Source: a virus. Taken from it: DNA of 64,000 nucleotides. Below are positions 54,053-64,000 of this stretch, piece by piece. Under the pieces are notes generated by a model that saw only the letters and a program-made list of their open reading frames with translations, did not search any database and had not been told where the DNA came from. Each line of letters begins with the position of its first letter. The stretch's first letter is position 1. The stretch lies in the IMG/VR virus record IMGVR_UViG_3300035698_026135, positions 1-64,000 of that record; one strand, given 5' to 3'. The position numbers and the translations under genes are program-made.

Positions 54053-54286
54053 ATGACGCTTAATAATCCCATGAAAAATAAAATTACTGCTAAAAGGGTA
54101 GCTAGGGCAAAAAGAAGGCTGGTTAACCAATATTCTTTGGGTGGAGGTTTTATAAACTCCTACAATTCAGCCATTAATATTGAAGAAAGTCTTGGTTTTT
54201 TTAGGCAAAATATTTCGGCATGTTGTCGAGGAGAATCCAAAACATCTCATGGATATGTTTGGAGACATGAAAATGATACGACATAA
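54053..54286 (+). CDS. Stand-alone NUMOD1-like domain ORF (77 aa)
   Basis: A basic N-terminus (MKNKITAKRVARAKRRLVNQ) leads into a NUMOD1 unit: YSLGGGFINSYNSAINIEES, then FRQNISACCRGESKTSHGYV ending in WRHEND. No nuclease residues are present. It lies between portal and the following head-locus gene, overlapping the latter (ATG 54273) by 14 nt. It is the third such solo domain, probably a remnant of a homing endonuclease. Confidence 0.6.
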   Translation: MTLNNPMKNKITAKRVARAKRRLVNQYSLGGGFINSYNSAINIEESLGFFRQNISACCRGESKTSHGYVWRHENDTT

Positions 54287-55121
54287 CAAAAAAAGAAATA
54301 CATTTATAGTTTACGAACAATTAATTACACTAGTCACACAACTGGCTGCTGGCGGAAATAAAACCGAGGCAAATTTTGTTGTTGAAATCATTAAGGAATG
54401 TTTTCACCCAAAAACACATTTGGGCCGAGAATACAAATTAATGAAGTCCGTCTTCGAAACGAGGCTGGGCTCAAAAGAGGATGCTCAGGATTTACTCAAA
54501 GAGGTTCTTTCAGAATCTAAGATTATTTCCCAAGAAAAACTGGAATTTGAGAAGGGCCGGCTTATAAAAAATATAAATAAATCCTTTTCTAAAGATTTTT
54601 ATAAAATCCCCATTAAAGAATACAAGCAGGCCGCATCCCTGCAAATCTTGATGAACGAATCCAGAACCAAAGATGTTGATACAACTCCCTCAGAGAGAGT
54701 TCAAATCAAGAAGACTTTAATTGAGACCATCACCAGAGCGAAACCTGCTCCCGCCCAAGAGGTTGATAGCCTGACGCTATCTTTGATGATCAAAAAGTTT
54801 AATGGAAGATACGCAAAAATAATGAATGAGGACCAACGACACCTTTTGTCTGCTTGGACAAACTTCATTGTCAACAAGGACGAAACTCAAGCTAAAAAGG
54901 TCATCGAAGAGAAGGTCGATAAGTTGAAAATTTCACTCTCCTCTTTAATGCATTCAAAAAATCATAAAAACAGTGAACTACGAGGCAGTCTAAAAGAAGC
55001 CTACGGCAAACTTGTTGAATCTAAGTTTGAACTAGATGAAAAATCAATTTATGAAGTTATGAGGTATTTTGACCTTACCGAGGACCTTAAAAATTATGAC
55101 CAAGAAGAAAAAGAAGTTTGA
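54273..55121 (+). CDS. Helical head-locus hypothetical protein (282 aa)
   Basis: The start is placed at ATG 54273 because ggag (54261-54264) lies at good distance and earlier starts run far into the NUMOD1-like ORF; ATG 54267 is nearly as likely. The protein is helical and basic: FIVYEQLITLVTQLAAGGNK, EANFVVEIIKECFHPKTHLG, LMKSVFETRLGSKEDAQDLL. No known domain is seen. Location between portal and prohead protease suggests a role in head assembly. It overlaps the next gene by 26 nt. Confidence 0.6.
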   Translation: MIRHNKKRNTFIVYEQLITLVTQLAAGGNKTEANFVVEIIKECFHPKTHLGREYKLMKSVFETRLGSKEDAQDLLKEVLSESKIISQEKLEFEKGRLIKNINKSFSKDFYKIPIKEYKQAASLQILMNESRTKDVDTTPSERVQIKKTLIETITRAKPAPAQEVDSLTLSLMIKKFNGRYAKIMNEDQRHLLSAWTNFIVNKDETQAKKVIEEKVDKLKISLSSLMHSKNHKNSELRGSLKEAYGKLVESKFELDEKSIYEVMRYFDLTEDLKNYDQEEKEV

Positions 55122-57315
55122 TGAAGCATCGGTCACAGCCGATATAACAGGATACCTCGCTTCTCGAAAAGCTTTTGCTAACGGAGAGGTGTATAATAAA
55201 AATAAGAAGAATAAGAAACCGACTCCTTGGTACCTGAAAACGGTCAAGGAAGTCCGTGCTGGCGTTCGTAAAGCGCTCACCGAACACAGGCTCCTAAGCG
55301 AATCTGATTTGAATTCGTTTGATGATCACATTGAAGATCTAGAGAATCAACTCGCCGACGCCGAAGAGAGATATGCCGAAAAGCCAAAAGATGCCGCACG
55401 GCGATTCAAAGTCCGCGAACTAGGTAGTCAAGTTCAACGATCCCACAAAGCGAAAGAGCTTGGCGGAGACGATTGGAGAAGTTATCTCATTGACCCAGAA
55501 GGCCAAAAGAAGATTGACGATACCAAAAAAGAGAAATCTACACGAAACAAAAAACAATCAGTGGTGGACGATTTCGACAAAGATCCCGAAGTAGAAAACT
55601 TTGTCTCTGTTGTGACTCCGGGCATCACAAAGTGGGTAAAGGCCAACAAAAATAAAACTGGTGTTTGGCTTCTGAATAAGTTTCAAAAATATCTCAACCA
55701 GACTAATACGAACGCTAAAGAGCTTAAGGACATTGAGAGCCTCGTCAAAGATGTCCTGATTGGCAAATATGCCAATAGTCCGAACCTTACTTCTCCGCTT
55801 GGAAAACCTGCGGAGAGCGAAGAGGATAAAATTAAATATGGCACGCTCGCATTTCTAAAGGCAAAAGAAGGAGAGAAAACACCAGCGCAGCCAATGGATT
55901 CGCCAGAGATGAAAGTCAAAGGCTCAGGCAAACGCACCGCACCAGGCGCAGGAATGGTACAAAAGGGAAGCGATAGGTACCGCAAAAGAATCGCTAAAGA
56001 GCCAATGCCTGGAGCAATCGGAGACCTTCAAAAGCTTCACAAAAAGATAGACGTTGCACCAGAATTTAAAGGCAAGGCTGTTGTTCCACCCAAGAGCGGT
56101 CGGGGCGGAAGCTTTGATCCAGGAACAGCAGGAAAAGAACTTCAGCAATCTTATGTTAAGATTGTAGATGAGATTCTGTATGGAAAAAATGGCAAGTTTG
56201 ACGAACTCGTAAACATCATTGGCCGTCGCCATGGCATAAACGATATGCCAAAGGTTGTTGCGCACCTTGCAAGCTTCGAAAAAGAAGGCGTTGACATGAC
56301 AGAGAAGAATGTAGAAATGCAGTTTTCAGACAAGGAGATCGAGGCCCTTGGAGAATTGTCTGTCCTTTCCGATCCAACCGAAGTTGCAAAATTACAGAGT
56401 CAGGGATTTACTCAATTTGAGGACGCTCTAGGAAATTACCTAAGAGACCTCTTTGCCGATAGAGGATATGACATTAAAACGTCCGATGAAGACGATGACT
56501 TAGATTCAGATTCCGGCGCCGTGACAGATGGGATGAGAGCACTTCTTGCCATCGAATTGAAGGTTAAGAGAAACGAGGTGGACCAAGCCGCTTCCGAAAT
56601 GAGAAAATCGAATCCAGAAAAGTGGAACAAGGCTGAGACCGCCGCCCTGAGAAGGTTGAGAGATCTTTCTCCGAGCGATTTCACCAAAGAGATTCAGGGC
56701 CGAAAGGGCCGAACCGACGATGCAAAAGAGCTTGAAAAAAGAAAGGCTGCCCTCAAGCCATCAGTAGACAAAAGAAGAGAGGAAGACGAAGCAATAGTTG
56801 CCCCTATGGGAAAATCCGATTTCCAAAGAAGTCTGGATGCACGGGAATATCACCAAAATATGTCTGCAATGGACAGGGTTATTGCGAGGCAAGAGAAAGA
56901 GTCGGCCGAGAATGAAGATCAAGGCCTATTTAATCAGAGAGAAAACAAAATGAGTAAAAAAGAATCATACCAATTTAGCATCCTTGAGCTTTTCGAAGGC
57001 TTCGAGAATTCTTACGATATCGAGACCGACGAAAAAGAAGAAGAGTGGGAGAATGGAACCCTTGCGTCCAAGAAAGAATGGGTTAAAGACCTATCCCTAG
57101 AGTCCCTCATGAGGACTATTGTTGAATCCGAGAAGGATAGACACACCAGAACGCGAAGCCCAGAGCCCGCCGATTGGCTTGAAGGAGATGCAGAAGTAGA
57201 AGAGGAACTAAAAAACGTCAATGTTCCTGATGGTTGGAATAAAGGAAACACTCCAGATTCATGGCTCGCCGTTGGCAAGCATGCCGGAAAGCTTCCTGAC
57301 AACGAAAGGAAATAA
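55096..57315 (+). CDS. Large charged head-locus protein of unknown function (739 aa)
   Basis: The start at ATG 55096 gives a Lys-rich N-terminus (MTKKKKKFDEASVTADITGY); TTG 55069 is the alternative. Nearly the whole chain is charged and helical, with disordered stretches (KKEKSTRNKKQSVVDDFDKD, FKGKAVVPPKSGRGGSFDPG) and KDITEL-like acidic segments near the end (LEGDAEVEEELKNVNVPDGW). It lies directly before the prohead protease. Size, charge and place fit an internal or prohead core protein; no domain supports this, so it is an inference. Confidence 0.6.
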   Translation: MTKKKKKFDEASVTADITGYLASRKAFANGEVYNKNKKNKKPTPWYLKTVKEVRAGVRKALTEHRLLSESDLNSFDDHIEDLENQLADAEERYAEKPKDAARRFKVRELGSQVQRSHKAKELGGDDWRSYLIDPEGQKKIDDTKKEKSTRNKKQSVVDDFDKDPEVENFVSVVTPGITKWVKANKNKTGVWLLNKFQKYLNQTNTNAKELKDIESLVKDVLIGKYANSPNLTSPLGKPAESEEDKIKYGTLAFLKAKEGEKTPAQPMDSPEMKVKGSGKRTAPGAGMVQKGSDRYRKRIAKEPMPGAIGDLQKLHKKIDVAPEFKGKAVVPPKSGRGGSFDPGTAGKELQQSYVKIVDEILYGKNGKFDELVNIIGRRHGINDMPKVVAHLASFEKEGVDMTEKNVEMQFSDKEIEALGELSVLSDPTEVAKLQSQGFTQFEDALGNYLRDLFADRGYDIKTSDEDDDLDSDSGAVTDGMRALLAIELKVKRNEVDQAASEMRKSNPEKWNKAETAALRRLRDLSPSDFTKEIQGRKGRTDDAKELEKRKAALKPSVDKRREEDEAIVAPMGKSDFQRSLDAREYHQNMSAMDRVIARQEKESAENEDQGLFNQRENKMSKKESYQFSILELFEGFENSYDIETDEKEEEWENGTLASKKEWVKDLSLESLMRTIVESEKDRHTRTRSPEPADWLEGDAEVEEELKNVNVPDGWNKGNTPDSWLAVGKHAGKLPDNERK

Positions 57316-57317
57316 AA

Positions 57318-59030
57318 ATGCCAGTCATCCTCAAAGAGTATTATCAGCTCTCCCCAAATAAAGAGACCCTAACAGAAATGAGACAGTCTCTAAGCGAGGG
57401 CAAACCCTTCATCGTAAAGGGTCTCATTCAACGCGCCGATGCACAGAATCAAAATGGAAGAATTTATCCATTCGAAATTCTCAAAAAGGTCTTGGATGGC
57501 TACGACAAAGATTATGTATCGAAAGGTATTGCATTGGGTGAACTCGACCATTGTCTAGCTGGAGATACGGAAGTGTTGACGGAAGATGGCTGGAAAATGC
57601 TTCCAGATGTAGAGGTCGGAGAGAATGTATATTCCTACAAAGAGGGAGAAATCAAACTTGTGCCGGTAACGAAGACTCACAAATTTGCCTATAATGGAAA
57701 AATGATTCGCCTAACCAACGGAAAAAAGATGGATCTACTAATGACCCCTAATCACAGAATGATTTTGTGGGATAGAGATAATAAAGATTACTATATGACA
57801 GCCGAAGATGCAAGAAAGTCATGGAAGACAAAAAGCCCTTCCCTCTCTCATTCTAGCATTAAGTCGTCCGGCGAGTGGAATGACGGAAATAGCGAATCAT
57901 ATTTTGAGATTCCCGATACGGATTATAGAGTTTCGATGAAGGCGTGGGCCGGTTTGATGGGCATATTTTTATCAGATGGACACGTAGAGGGAAGTCGTTC
58001 GGGAAACGTTAGAAACAATAGGGTTACTATTCACCAGAAAAAGGCCGAAAATATATCAAAAATAGAAGAATTGTTGTCGTCGACCGAACTTCCCTGGACT
58101 AAGTTTATTCACGAAAACGGAAAGCATGAGTGGAGCCTTCACAACAAAGGGGTTCATGCTTACTTTTCTCAGTTTGGCAATTCGGAAACCAAGTTTATTC
58201 CAAGGGATCTACTCTTACAAAATAAAGATGTTTTGTCGACCTTGTCAGAATGGCTCCTTGTTGGCGATGGACGAAACAGAATTTCAAAAACCTCGAACTC
58301 CACAAGAGCTATTAAAGAGTATTCGACTGTGTCAACAAGATTGGCTGACGATGTTAGCGAATTGTTTTTCAAATTGGGATATAGGCCCTTCATCAAGACG
58401 GAGATAGCCAAAGAAGATTTGTTGATTGAAGGGAGGGTTGTCAAAAAAGAAAATTGCAAACCTCTCTATACTGTTGCTGGCAACACGACTAGCACATCGC
58501 TGGATGCTCGATTTATAAACTTCGAAGAAATAGAATATGATGATTATGTTTATTGTATTTCGGATGAAAATAAGAACTTTTTAACACGTAGTCCCAATGG
58601 ATATGTTTGCTGGACAGGCAATACCGAAGAGCCCGTTATAGCACTAAAGAATGTCTCCCATAGAATCCTTGAGGTTTGGTGGGAAGGTAAAGATGTGCAT
58701 GGAAAGGTTCAAATTCTGAACACCCCAGCAGGAAAGATCGCCCAAGAGATGACACTAGCAGGAATACCTCTCGGTATTTCATCGAGAGCCGTTGGATCCG
58801 TATCCAAAAACGAGTCTTCTGGTGCCGATATTGTAGAGGATGACCTTCAAATGATTTGTTTCGATCTTGTCGGCACACCATCTACCCACGGCGCCTTCCT
58901 TCACGAGAATCAAAAAGTGCTTAATTCAAAAGCAAAAGAGATTACGGATTTTGATCCAACAAAAGTTTTGCCCGCCAGCGTAAGAGTAAAGCAAACTCTC
59001 GAAGACATCCTGGGCAAAGAAGTAAAATAA
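57318..59030 (+). CDS. 21: Prohead core protease, gp21-like, interrupted by an intein (570 aa precursor, 213 aa after splicing)
   Basis: The exteins (residues 1-78 and 436-570) join into a 213-residue protein, nearly the size of T4 gp21 (212 aa). They show KGLIQRADAQNQNGRIYPFE and the catalytic region GELDH, continuing after the intein with TEEPVIALKNVSHRILEVWW and GIPLGISSRAVGSVSK, then FDLVGTPSTHGAFL. The protease cuts scaffold, capsid and other head proteins during maturation. The intein begins right after the GELDH His, so protease should be inactive until splicing. Neighbours are head genes. Confidence 0.9.
   Translation: MPVILKEYYQLSPNKETLTEMRQSLSEGKPFIVKGLIQRADAQNQNGRIYPFEILKKVLDGYDKDYVSKGIALGELDHCLAGDTEVLTEDGWKMLPDVEVGENVYSYKEGEIKLVPVTKTHKFAYNGKMIRLTNGKKMDLLMTPNHRMILWDRDNKDYYMTAEDARKSWKTKSPSLSHSSIKSSGEWNDGNSESYFEIPDTDYRVSMKAWAGLMGIFLSDGHVEGSRSGNVRNNRVTIHQKKAENISKIEELLSSTELPWTKFIHENGKHEWSLHNKGVHAYFSQFGNSETKFIPRDLLLQNKDVLSTLSEWLLVGDGRNRISKTSNSTRAIKEYSTVSTRLADDVSELFFKLGYRPFIKTEIAKEDLLIEGRVVKKENCKPLYTVAGNTTSTSLDARFINFEEIEYDDYVYCISDENKNFLTRSPNGYVCWTGNTEEPVIALKNVSHRILEVWWEGKDVHGKVQILNTPAGKIAQEMTLAGIPLGISSRAVGSVSKNESSGADIVEDDLQMICFDLVGTPSTHGAFLHENQKVLNSKAKEITDFDPTKVLPASVRVKQTLEDILGKEVK
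57552..58622 (+). mobile_element. Intein with LAGLIDADG-type homing endonuclease domain (357 aa, inside gp21)
   Basis: The block begins at Cys79 (CLAGDTEVLTEDGWKMLPDV, splicing block A), has block B TPNH (LLMTPNHRMIL), two LAGLIDADG-like helices (AGLMGIFLSDGHV and LSEWLLVGDGRNR), and ends with VYCISDENKNFLTRSPNG then YVCWTGN, Asn435. The next residue is Thr436, a valid +1 nucleophile. The penultimate residue is Gly, where His is usual. The endonuclease would cut intein-less gp21 genes. Ends are read by motif. Confidence 0.9.
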
Positions 59031-59062: not shown

Positions 59063-59413
59063 ATGAATATAAAGAAACTATCTTTGTTAATTGAGCGTAT
59101 GGTAGCGAAGCAACTCCAGAAACACCTTAAGCCCATGATCAACGAGGTTCTTGCAGAAAAATACCTCTCTGTGCTTACAGAGCAGAAGGCTCCCGGCCTA
59201 CAGGATTCTTTTCCAGCATACACACAAGAAACCAGGCCCACAACCGCACCTCCCGTAGAAGACGGCAGAAAACAACTACAGGAAAGAAGGGAAGCTTTGA
59301 TAGCGAAGCTTACCGATGGAGACCCAGGAATGGCTATGCTTTATGAGGGTACAAGCGCACTCGACGAAGTTGTCGATGATGATGGCGTTGATATCTCTCG
59401 GTTTGGATTTTAA
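59063..59413 (+). CDS. Head-locus hypothetical protein (116 aa)
   Basis: ATG 59063 follows aaaggaag (59049-59056). The N-terminal helix (MNIKKLSLLIERMVAKQLQK) leads to EVLAEKYLSVLTEQKAPGLQ, a Pro/Thr linker and a C-terminal helix, ending ISRFGF. VLTEQ and LYEGT fit the L-x-E sites cut by gp21-type proteases, so a prohead core protein is likely by place and motif. No family is recognised. Confidence 0.65.
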   Translation: MNIKKLSLLIERMVAKQLQKHLKPMINEVLAEKYLSVLTEQKAPGLQDSFPAYTQETRPTTAPPVEDGRKQLQERREALIAKLTDGDPGMAMLYEGTSALDEVVDDDGVDISRFGF

Positions 59414-59415
59414 TT

Positions 59416-59748
59416 ATGGATAAATTTAATATATTTGGATTTCTTTTTGAGGGTGGAATGTTGAGCGAAGAGGGAGAAGAGGAAGAGCAACCCGAAGCTG
59501 AACCCGAAGCTCCACAACAGCAACAGCAAGCTGAGCCGACACCAGAGAAAAATGCTGAAGTCGTTAGTCCCACGACAAGTCCTTTCGATCAATTTACTGG
59601 AGAAACAATTCAGAATATTGAATTTCAACCACATGAAAATGGTGGAAGTTTTACAATTAAAGTCGCCAACTCGAATTTGCCAATCATTATTAGTTGGGCT
59701 GGCGATCGAGTCACCATGAAGCACAAGGATATTGTCTCACTAACGTAG
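59416..59748 (+). CDS. Head-locus hypothetical protein with acidic/Gln-rich linker (110 aa)
   Basis: The start lies 2 nt after the previous stop. The N-terminus MDKFNIFGFLFEGGMLSEEG contains two L-x-E-type sites (LFEG, LSEE), then a Glu/Pro/Gln-rich stretch, then a beta-rich C-terminal domain (IEFQPHENGGSFTIKVANSN, IIISWAGDRVTMKHKDIVSL). It is probably a small head or prohead protein; function unknown. Confidence 0.65.
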   Translation: MDKFNIFGFLFEGGMLSEEGEEEEQPEAEPEAPQQQQQAEPTPEKNAEVVSPTTSPFDQFTGETIQNIEFQPHENGGSFTIKVANSNLPIIISWAGDRVTMKHKDIVSLT

Positions 59749-59779
59749 TCAATATATTTTTGTTTTACTATTTAAACAT

Positions 59780-60865
59780 GTGAAACTGAAGCTTACAGAC
59801 ATTCTGAAGGAATTGGTTGGAGGTCCCAGCCTTCGTCCTCAAGGCCCTTCAGGCGCAAACCAACATCTATTCCCACACCATGGCCTATACGGCAAATTGG
59901 GCGGAGGGAAGCCTAAAGCTTCCAATAAAGCCCCATATAACGATAAGGATTCAGATTTAGAGAACGGCGATAAAATGGCCGACGAAGCACAACCAAAAAT
60001 AGAAGAGCTTCCTTTGGAGAATCTATTTAAATTTACCACATCGGCCAACGATAATACATCGTTTCCTCGTCCTCCAACTATGGGAGCGGGATCAATGGCC
60101 GCATATGGAAAAGACACTAATGCGATCGACTCCTTCGATACGAGCGATGAAGGAAATGAGGAGCGATTCAAGACACTTAAGGGCCGCGAAGACCAAAGAG
60201 CTAAGATTACAGAGCTTGCAGGGGGGAGAGAGAGACACCCTCGCGATGACAATGATTACTCCACCAAGCAAGGCTGGGCCAACGGAATTCCTGGCCGAGA
60301 CAAAAAAGACATCGAAGCTGGTGATTTAAAAGTAGATGAAATGATGAAAGATAGAGCACCCGATGCTGACGCTGGAAAGATCTATAAAAGGATTGTAGGA
60401 GAATCTCATGCTGGCCCACTCAAGGAAGGGGGCGCCGATTCGTCCTTTTCGAGAATGAATTTACAAAAAACGATGAAATCGCCCCAAAGTGATTTAAATT
60501 TTTGGAATATTATTGATAGAGAAAATATATATCTATTAACGAACCCTAACAAAAAGGAAAAGAATGACAAAAGGAAAAGAAGAAAAGTACAGATTGATAA
60601 GAGATTCCACAAAGCGGCTGAGCTAACTCACGTCCCCGTTGTGGCTAAGCACCTAGAAGTGAAAGCAGAAGAGGTGAATGGAGACATTAGAAAACTAATA
60701 AAGAAATTTTGCAAAAAAGTGAGAAGAGAAGAAGTTCTTAAACCATTTTATGGAAAATTGATGCACTATACTCCAAAGTCTGAAATCAAAAGACAGAAAA
60801 AACTGTCTGCGATATATTCTCAGAAAAAGAAGGAAGAAAAAGAAGAAAAGGAAGAAATTTTATAA
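59780..60865 (+). CDS. Head-locus protein with C-terminal bS21-like ribosomal protein domain (361 aa)
   Basis: The start is GTG 59780 (MKLKLTDILKELVGGPSLRP). The first 280 residues are hydrophilic and low in order (LFPHHGLYGKLGGGKPKASN, KFTTSANDNTSFPRPPTMGA), with LKEGG as a possible protease site. Residues about 293-350 resemble ribosomal protein bS21: LEVKAEEVNGDIRKLIKKFC, KKVRREEVLKPFYGKLMHYT, PKSEIKRQKKLSAIYSQKKK, matching bS21's D..L..F + Y.KP(S/T)...+.K..A pattern. Phage-encoded bS21 genes are known from large phages; fusion to a long head-locus protein is unusual. Homology should be tested. Confidence 0.6.
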   Translation: MKLKLTDILKELVGGPSLRPQGPSGANQHLFPHHGLYGKLGGGKPKASNKAPYNDKDSDLENGDKMADEAQPKIEELPLENLFKFTTSANDNTSFPRPPTMGAGSMAAYGKDTNAIDSFDTSDEGNEERFKTLKGREDQRAKITELAGGRERHPRDDNDYSTKQGWANGIPGRDKKDIEAGDLKVDEMMKDRAPDADAGKIYKRIVGESHAGPLKEGGADSSFSRMNLQKTMKSPQSDLNFWNIIDRENIYLLTNPNKKEKNDKRKRRKVQIDKRFHKAAELTHVPVVAKHLEVKAEEVNGDIRKLIKKFCKKVRREEVLKPFYGKLMHYTPKSEIKRQKKLSAIYSQKKKEEKEEKEEIL

Positions 60866-63929: not shown

Positions 63930-64000
63930 ATGTCAGAACTATCCTTCGTCTCCTTTAGTGGAAGCACCCGCCCAACAGCCTTCGGAACCTACGACCTAGA
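63930..64000 (+). CDS. Start of the next structural gene (partial, 23 codons visible)
   Basis: ATG 63930 opens a frame that runs off the window: MSELSFVSFSGSTRPTAFGT then YDL. The G-S-T-R-P-T-A-F-G-T-Y-D pattern looks like the N-terminus of a tail or neck protein. Since tail sheath and tail tube genes are not found elsewhere in the window, one of these could begin here, but this is a guess. There is no strong Shine-Dalgarno in front of the ATG. Confidence 0.5.
   Translation, partial: MSELSFVSFSGSTRPTAFGTYDL

Follow-up and report, generated by a model that had tools for sequence, protein, structure and literature searches.

The prohead protease gene of the virus recorded as IMGVR_UViG_3300035698_026135 in IMG/VR carries, between the codon of its catalytic histidine and the next codon, what we read with a probability of about 0.72 as a mobile LAGLIDADG intein, one member of a lineage that homes into Peptidase_S77 prohead proteases and has repeatedly moved its insertion point between four positions. 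The S77 intein looks like a single parasite lineage shifting around an active site, not like a built-in timer of capsid maturation. The DNA analysed here, called the window, is the stretch of 64,000 nucleotides from position 1 to position 64,000 of that record. In the motifs given below, the sign ^ marks an insertion point. The gene has the following features:

57318..59030, + strand: intein-containing S77 prohead protease ORF, 570 aa plus stop
57318..57551, + strand: N-extein, 78 aa, last residues ...ALGELDH (translation, extein join, T4 alignment)
57549..57551, + strand: H78, catalytic His by alignment with T4 gp21 His85, also the splice junction -1 residue
57552..58622, + strand: intein C79-N435, 357 aa, HINT splicing domain with a LAGLIDADG endonuclease inside (profiles, AlphaFold2 model, Foldseek)
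57744..57755, + strand: block B T-P-N-H, T143-H146 (all 64 aligned S77 inteins have this T and H)
57960..57983, + strand: LAGLIDADG-like motif 1 GIFLSDGH, G215-H222 (D or E acid in 64/64)
58254..58274, + strand: LAGLIDADG-like motif 2 LLVGDGR (GDG acid in 64/64)
58548..58562, + strand: block F VYCIS (Cys kept in 61/64)
58617..58622, + strand: intein C-terminus G434-N435 (penultimate Gly in 70/82 S77 inteins listed)
58623..59030, + strand: C-extein, 135 aa plus stop, first residues TEEPVIALKNVSH, with the +1 nucleophile T436 (extein join)
58779..58781, + strand: S488, counterpart of T4 gp21 Ser140 by alignment (GISSR / GVSSR)
58863..58865, + strand: D516, counterpart of T4 Asp168 by alignment, invariant in 57 aligned interrupted proteases

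Translation of 57318-59030 (+) gives a single open frame, in which the intein boundaries proposed by a sequence-only reading of this DNA (Cys79, Gly434, Asn435, and Thr436 at +1) were recovered with exactly the residues and coordinates claimed. That reading had placed the intein within a gp21-like protease of about 213 aa once freed of the insert, and both points hold: S77, intein, and LAGLIDADG models all fall on this one frame, and the joined exteins measure 213 aa versus 212 aa for T4 gp21. The Pfam Peptidase_S77 model scores 62.1 bits (cut-off 27) over two stretches on either side of the insert, a PHROG head maturation protease matches at 1e-36, and the gene sits in a head module with those for terminase, portal, and major head protein. 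Three ORFs located between the portal, protease, and major head protein genes (54180-55121, 55069-57315, and 59063-60865) have no PHROG match and, from their position, are likely to encode scaffold or core proteins. The extein alignment sets the GELDH of the window against the GELNH of T4 gp21, whose histidine is residue 85, in agreement with the earlier proposal that the insert directly follows the catalytic histidine, and all three members of the T4 triad have counterparts (H78, S488, and D516 for H85, S140, and D168). An H/S/D triad has been reported for T4 gp21 and SPN3US gp245 (PMC5694885). Residue 140 is the first serine of T4 gp21 GVSSR; the chain in PDB entry 5JBL reads GVASRG where native T4 has GVSSRG, a reading consistent with an active-site Ser-to-Ala variant. 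Since its catalytic histidine is tied to the intein, the precursor is likely to be inactive before splicing. The model of an uninterrupted relative (L004) has 5JBL as its best match (2.9e-11) and forms the short strand that carries GEL, which is absent from the precursor model, a difference to which we give little weight.

The insert can be confirmed as a class 1-type intein housed in a T4 gp21-like (Peptidase_S77) prohead protease. The NCBIfam model intein_Nterm (TIGR01445) scores 26.7 bits, above its cut-off of 24.5, and its match begins exactly at C79, just after GELDH, at the position where class 1 inteins have Cys or Ser and where all 64 aligned S77 inteins have Cys. At the other end, N435-T436 provides the C-terminal Asn and, after it, one of the expected residues Cys, Ser, or Thr; G434 stands in place of the usual, non-obligatory penultimate His. 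The Pfam model LAGLIDADG_3 reaches 25.6 bits (cut-off 22.5) and Intein_splicing (PF14890) 27.4 bits, below its cut-off of 35.8. Two LAGLIDADG-like helices each supply an acid (SDG and GDG), so that the two motifs announced by the earlier reading were located within the insert. The AlphaFold2 model of the precursor (mean pLDDT 86.7) retrieves intein and homing-endonuclease crystal structures as its top Foldseek matches, the best being TliVMA (4.9e-20) and PI-SceI, both with the HINT fold. As a LAGLIDADG intein seated at an active site, the element is of an ordinary kind. A second intein of the same phage, outside the window, interrupts a peptide deformylase (L176:1184-2743; G000:C1:105184-106743), where it lies inside the zinc-binding motif QHE^CDHLDG, matches LAGLIDADG_2, and has a canonical HN end.

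The idea that the window intein is a unique oddity had to be rejected, as it has dozens of relatives in the S77 proteases of other phages. A tblastn search of annotated phages revealed two more genomes, LR756508 and Desulfovibrio phage 7757, whose S77 protease gene is likewise interrupted by an intein. Used as a single-sequence query against IMG/VR, the window intein gave no match, and intein alignments were needed to detect its relatives. Scans of IMG/VR with such alignments together with a profile of uninterrupted S77 proteases yielded at least 72 different interrupted S77 ORFs, all of them split at approximately the same positions of the protease profile; no intein elsewhere in the protease was seen among the 72 interrupted ORFs listed. 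With a further scan, based on the N-terminal part of the intein, the collection grew to at least 81 distinct S77-protease intein sequences, some of them near-copies, and every one lies five residues or less from the catalytic histidine. The open-licence PMC literature yielded no report of inteins in gp21-type proteases and, as far as it shows, this recurrent intein host gene seems to be novel.

Along the stretch GE-L-D-H-P-E-S, the inteins occupy four insertion points: A (GE^C-DHP), B (H^T or H^S), C (HP^C or HP^S), and D (HP[ED]^S), with 19, 2, 9, and 52 members, respectively, among the inteins listed. Site B contains the window intein and L212 only, and the inteins of LR756508 and Desulfovibrio phage 7757 are found at HPD^S and HPS^S. 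Because both intein boundaries move jointly and the spliced length is preserved across points, the shift of insertion point is real and does not reflect a misread junction. The residue after the insertion is Cys, Ser, or Thr at every point, with L195 as the sole exception. In that protease ORF (from 2626) Tyr-Cys follows the last Asn, leaving no nucleophile at +1, and to judge from these residues the intein may be defective, splice abnormally, or have a shifted junction. At site D the required Ser is native in 73 of 80 uninterrupted relatives. Those 80 proteases, a biased sample, have Leu at the site A position; a pattern scan for GECDHP[DE] recovered at least 112 S77 proteases among 127 matching ORFs listed, which shows that a native Cys exists at site A. 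The view that only site D offers a native nucleophile and that A to C always force a change was dropped for site A on the strength of these uninterrupted GECDHP[DE] proteases. One carrier, L214 (protease ORF from 2722), reads GECDHPE with the site A Cys and yet has its intein at site D; it may once have carried an intein at site A, or it may simply be a natural variant.

Site B has a different history in its flanking residue, as Pro directly follows the histidine in all 80 uninterrupted S77 relatives, a trait general in close relatives and not a formal criterion of the family, and the window protease would instead have Thr436 there after splicing. One pattern scan for uninterrupted GELDHT[DE] returned eight matches, none of them an S77 protease. 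It might be supposed that the window intein no longer splices and that its protease is inactive or has been replaced, given that the family-typical Pro is lost, that the penultimate His is missing, and that the Pfam splicing model stays below its cut-off. We regard such a dead insert as very unlikely, since C1, the block B Thr and His, the terminal Asn, and the Thr nucleophile are all there, the frame is open, the catalytic Ser and Asp are retained, and a penultimate Gly is normal for S77 inteins. For the same reason, the earlier suggestion that Gly434 would slow C-terminal cleavage was abandoned, Gly being the family norm and splicing without the penultimate His being known: a passage of PMC7664689, citing Chen 2000, describes splicing as compatible with substitutions at this position. 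Both splicing and target cleavage by the window intein are predicted to work.

How the four points are related was examined with trees. A quick tree was built from 65 S77 inteins plus 24 other-gene inteins found with S77-derived patterns; in it the S77 inteins separate from the others with the exception of L218. A careful intein tree locates the window intein inside a 13-member set that includes sites A and D (support 100/95), on a long branch (1.3), its nearest relatives being no more than 38% identical to it. The four points require at least nine changes on this tree, three being the least possible. The splicing domain alone and the endonuclease alone each give eight changes and place the window intein alike. 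L194 (site A) and L253 (site D) share 51% identity in their inteins and 69% in their exteins. The main rival to a shifting lineage is a series of separate entries into the same motif by independent inteins that each had a target of their own, without any shift within a lineage. The nucleophiles do differ by site, the C-terminal pairs differ in part (HN, KN, and SN are confined to site A among the S77 inteins listed), and L218 groups apart from the other S77 inteins. We nevertheless consider separate entries rather improbable as a general explanation, because site changes are nested with good support (L234 groups with four site A inteins at 100/100, and L253 and L185 are nested in the site A set), because the splicing and endonuclease parts agree in their number of changes, and because a single origin of site A is rejected by the AU test (p=1e-6). 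Measured against the contrast set of 24 other-gene inteins, the intein family may still have entered S77 proteases from other genes more than once. One member of that contrast set, in a radical SAM protein of an uncultured archaeon plasmid (LC711081, L090:3001-4065), is 28% identical to the full-length window intein and clusters with the other-gene inteins.

The protease genes tell a different story from the inteins that they carry. Their tree requires 15 site changes, conflicts with the intein tree, and mixes intact and interrupted genes; uninterrupted proteases are interspersed among close relatives, with exteins up to 94% identical. The sequence-only reading had advised checking whether related phages lack the insert, and they do: empty sites could be aligned at the DNA level in three pairs (L227/L261, L203/L387, and L284/L431), and the exteins of L203 (site A) are 91% identical to the uninterrupted GECDHPE protease of L387. 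This discordance between trees, together with the interspersed uninterrupted relatives, fits a homing parasite.

In the mechanism that we propose for the shifting lineage, the intein would cut itself out of the precursor and link GELDH with TEEP, which is expected to produce the 213-aa protease. The lineage would pass from one tailed phage to another, homing each time into the conserved codons that surround the catalytic histidine, with an insertion point that shifts among four places within five residues (15 nucleotides), and the change from Pro to Thr after the histidine at H^T would supply the splicing nucleophile. The shift itself could stem from imprecise repair, with an intein-bearing donor, of a break in one shared endonuclease target. 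As homing endonucleases recognize sites of 12-40 bp (PMC2814812), and the four points span 15 bp, a length that such sites nearly reach or exceed, one target could serve all of them. The odds appear to us about even for the full version of this proposal, in which one lineage seated on the catalytic-His codons of prohead proteases moved its point many times over distances of 3 to 15 nucleotides, probably via a tolerant endonuclease target, wherever Cys, Ser, or Thr was available or could be carried in, leaving an altered residue beside the catalytic histidine at H^T and H^S.

A regulatory role had also been suggested for this intein, with splicing as a timer of capsid maturation: the phage would retain the intein since slow or conditional splicing delays the protease until the prohead is complete. 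The position of all of the at least 81 inteins within five residues of the catalytic histidine speaks for it, as do mini-inteins without an endonuclease, 145-163 aa long and located at sites A and D (L268, L271, L278, L283, L301, and L313). These derive from four separate endonuclease losses in the splicing-domain tree and have retained their splicing residues, so that an intein can persist without homing; they reject the idea that every S77 intein has an endonuclease, and their persistence is the sole observation that leaves room for a timer. Against it, both endonuclease acids are kept in 64 of 64 aligned full-length S77 inteins (partly a selection effect, one scan pattern having included the first LAGLIDADG motif), and close uninterrupted relatives are interspersed among the carriers. 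Moreover, T4 gp21 is kept inactive by its own N-terminal region and cleaves itself there once the prohead is finished (PMC9958956). A splicing timer would thus add a second switch to a protease type that already has an activation route. A preference for conserved active-site positions is general among inteins (PMC2814812), and insertion beside the catalytic histidine therefore needs no regulatory reason. The timer has found no positive support, and we deem it very unlikely. The mixture of full and endonuclease-less S77 inteins is what the usual homing cycle would leave, with its phases of invasion, spread, and decay.

The customary classification of inteins rests on a fixed insertion point, alleles that share one being taken as nearest relatives (PMC9957025). 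With one lineage seemingly at four adjoining points, the shift of insertion point becomes a datable and testable phenomenon, and this in the gene of a protease on which phage head maturation depends. If true, the H^T and H^S points leave a changed residue beside the catalytic histidine of an essential viral enzyme, and the full, endonuclease-less, and empty S77 alleles form a ready set for finding out whether active-site splicing ever turns into regulation. The shifting insertion point, with its Pro-to-Thr change beside the catalytic histidine, seems to be the novel part.

Among known systems, T4 gp21 (Peptidase_S77, PDB 5JBL) is the counterpart of the host protein: the window exteins align with it end to end, and in both phages the protease gene lies between those for portal and major head protein, although in the window the protease is split by an intein right after the histidine, with Thr and not Pro as the next residue. 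The inteins of LR756508 and Desulfovibrio phage 7757 share with that of the window the same gene, the same motif, and a GN end; they are 31% and 27% identical to it, respectively, and are inserted two residues further (HP[DS]^S). TliVMA and PI-SceI (PDB 7QSU, 1EF0, and 1VDE) have the same architecture, a HINT domain with an embedded two-motif LAGLIDADG endonuclease, but only 14-17% sequence identity to the window intein, and their host protein is a V-ATPase subunit. Large LAGLIDADG inteins of the TliVMA/PI-SceI type have a canonical penultimate His. The haloarchaeal MCM-d intein offers the nearest precedent: there, uninvaded alleles mostly have Pro after the insertion point and invaded ones Ser; Pro blocks splicing, and the flanking codon must be co-converted, which gives the invaded alleles their Ser (PMC10643990). 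The window has the same pattern with Pro and Thr, in another gene and another intein family. The MCM sites a-d each hold their own intein type (PMC10643990), whereas a single S77 lineage seems to occupy four neighbouring points.
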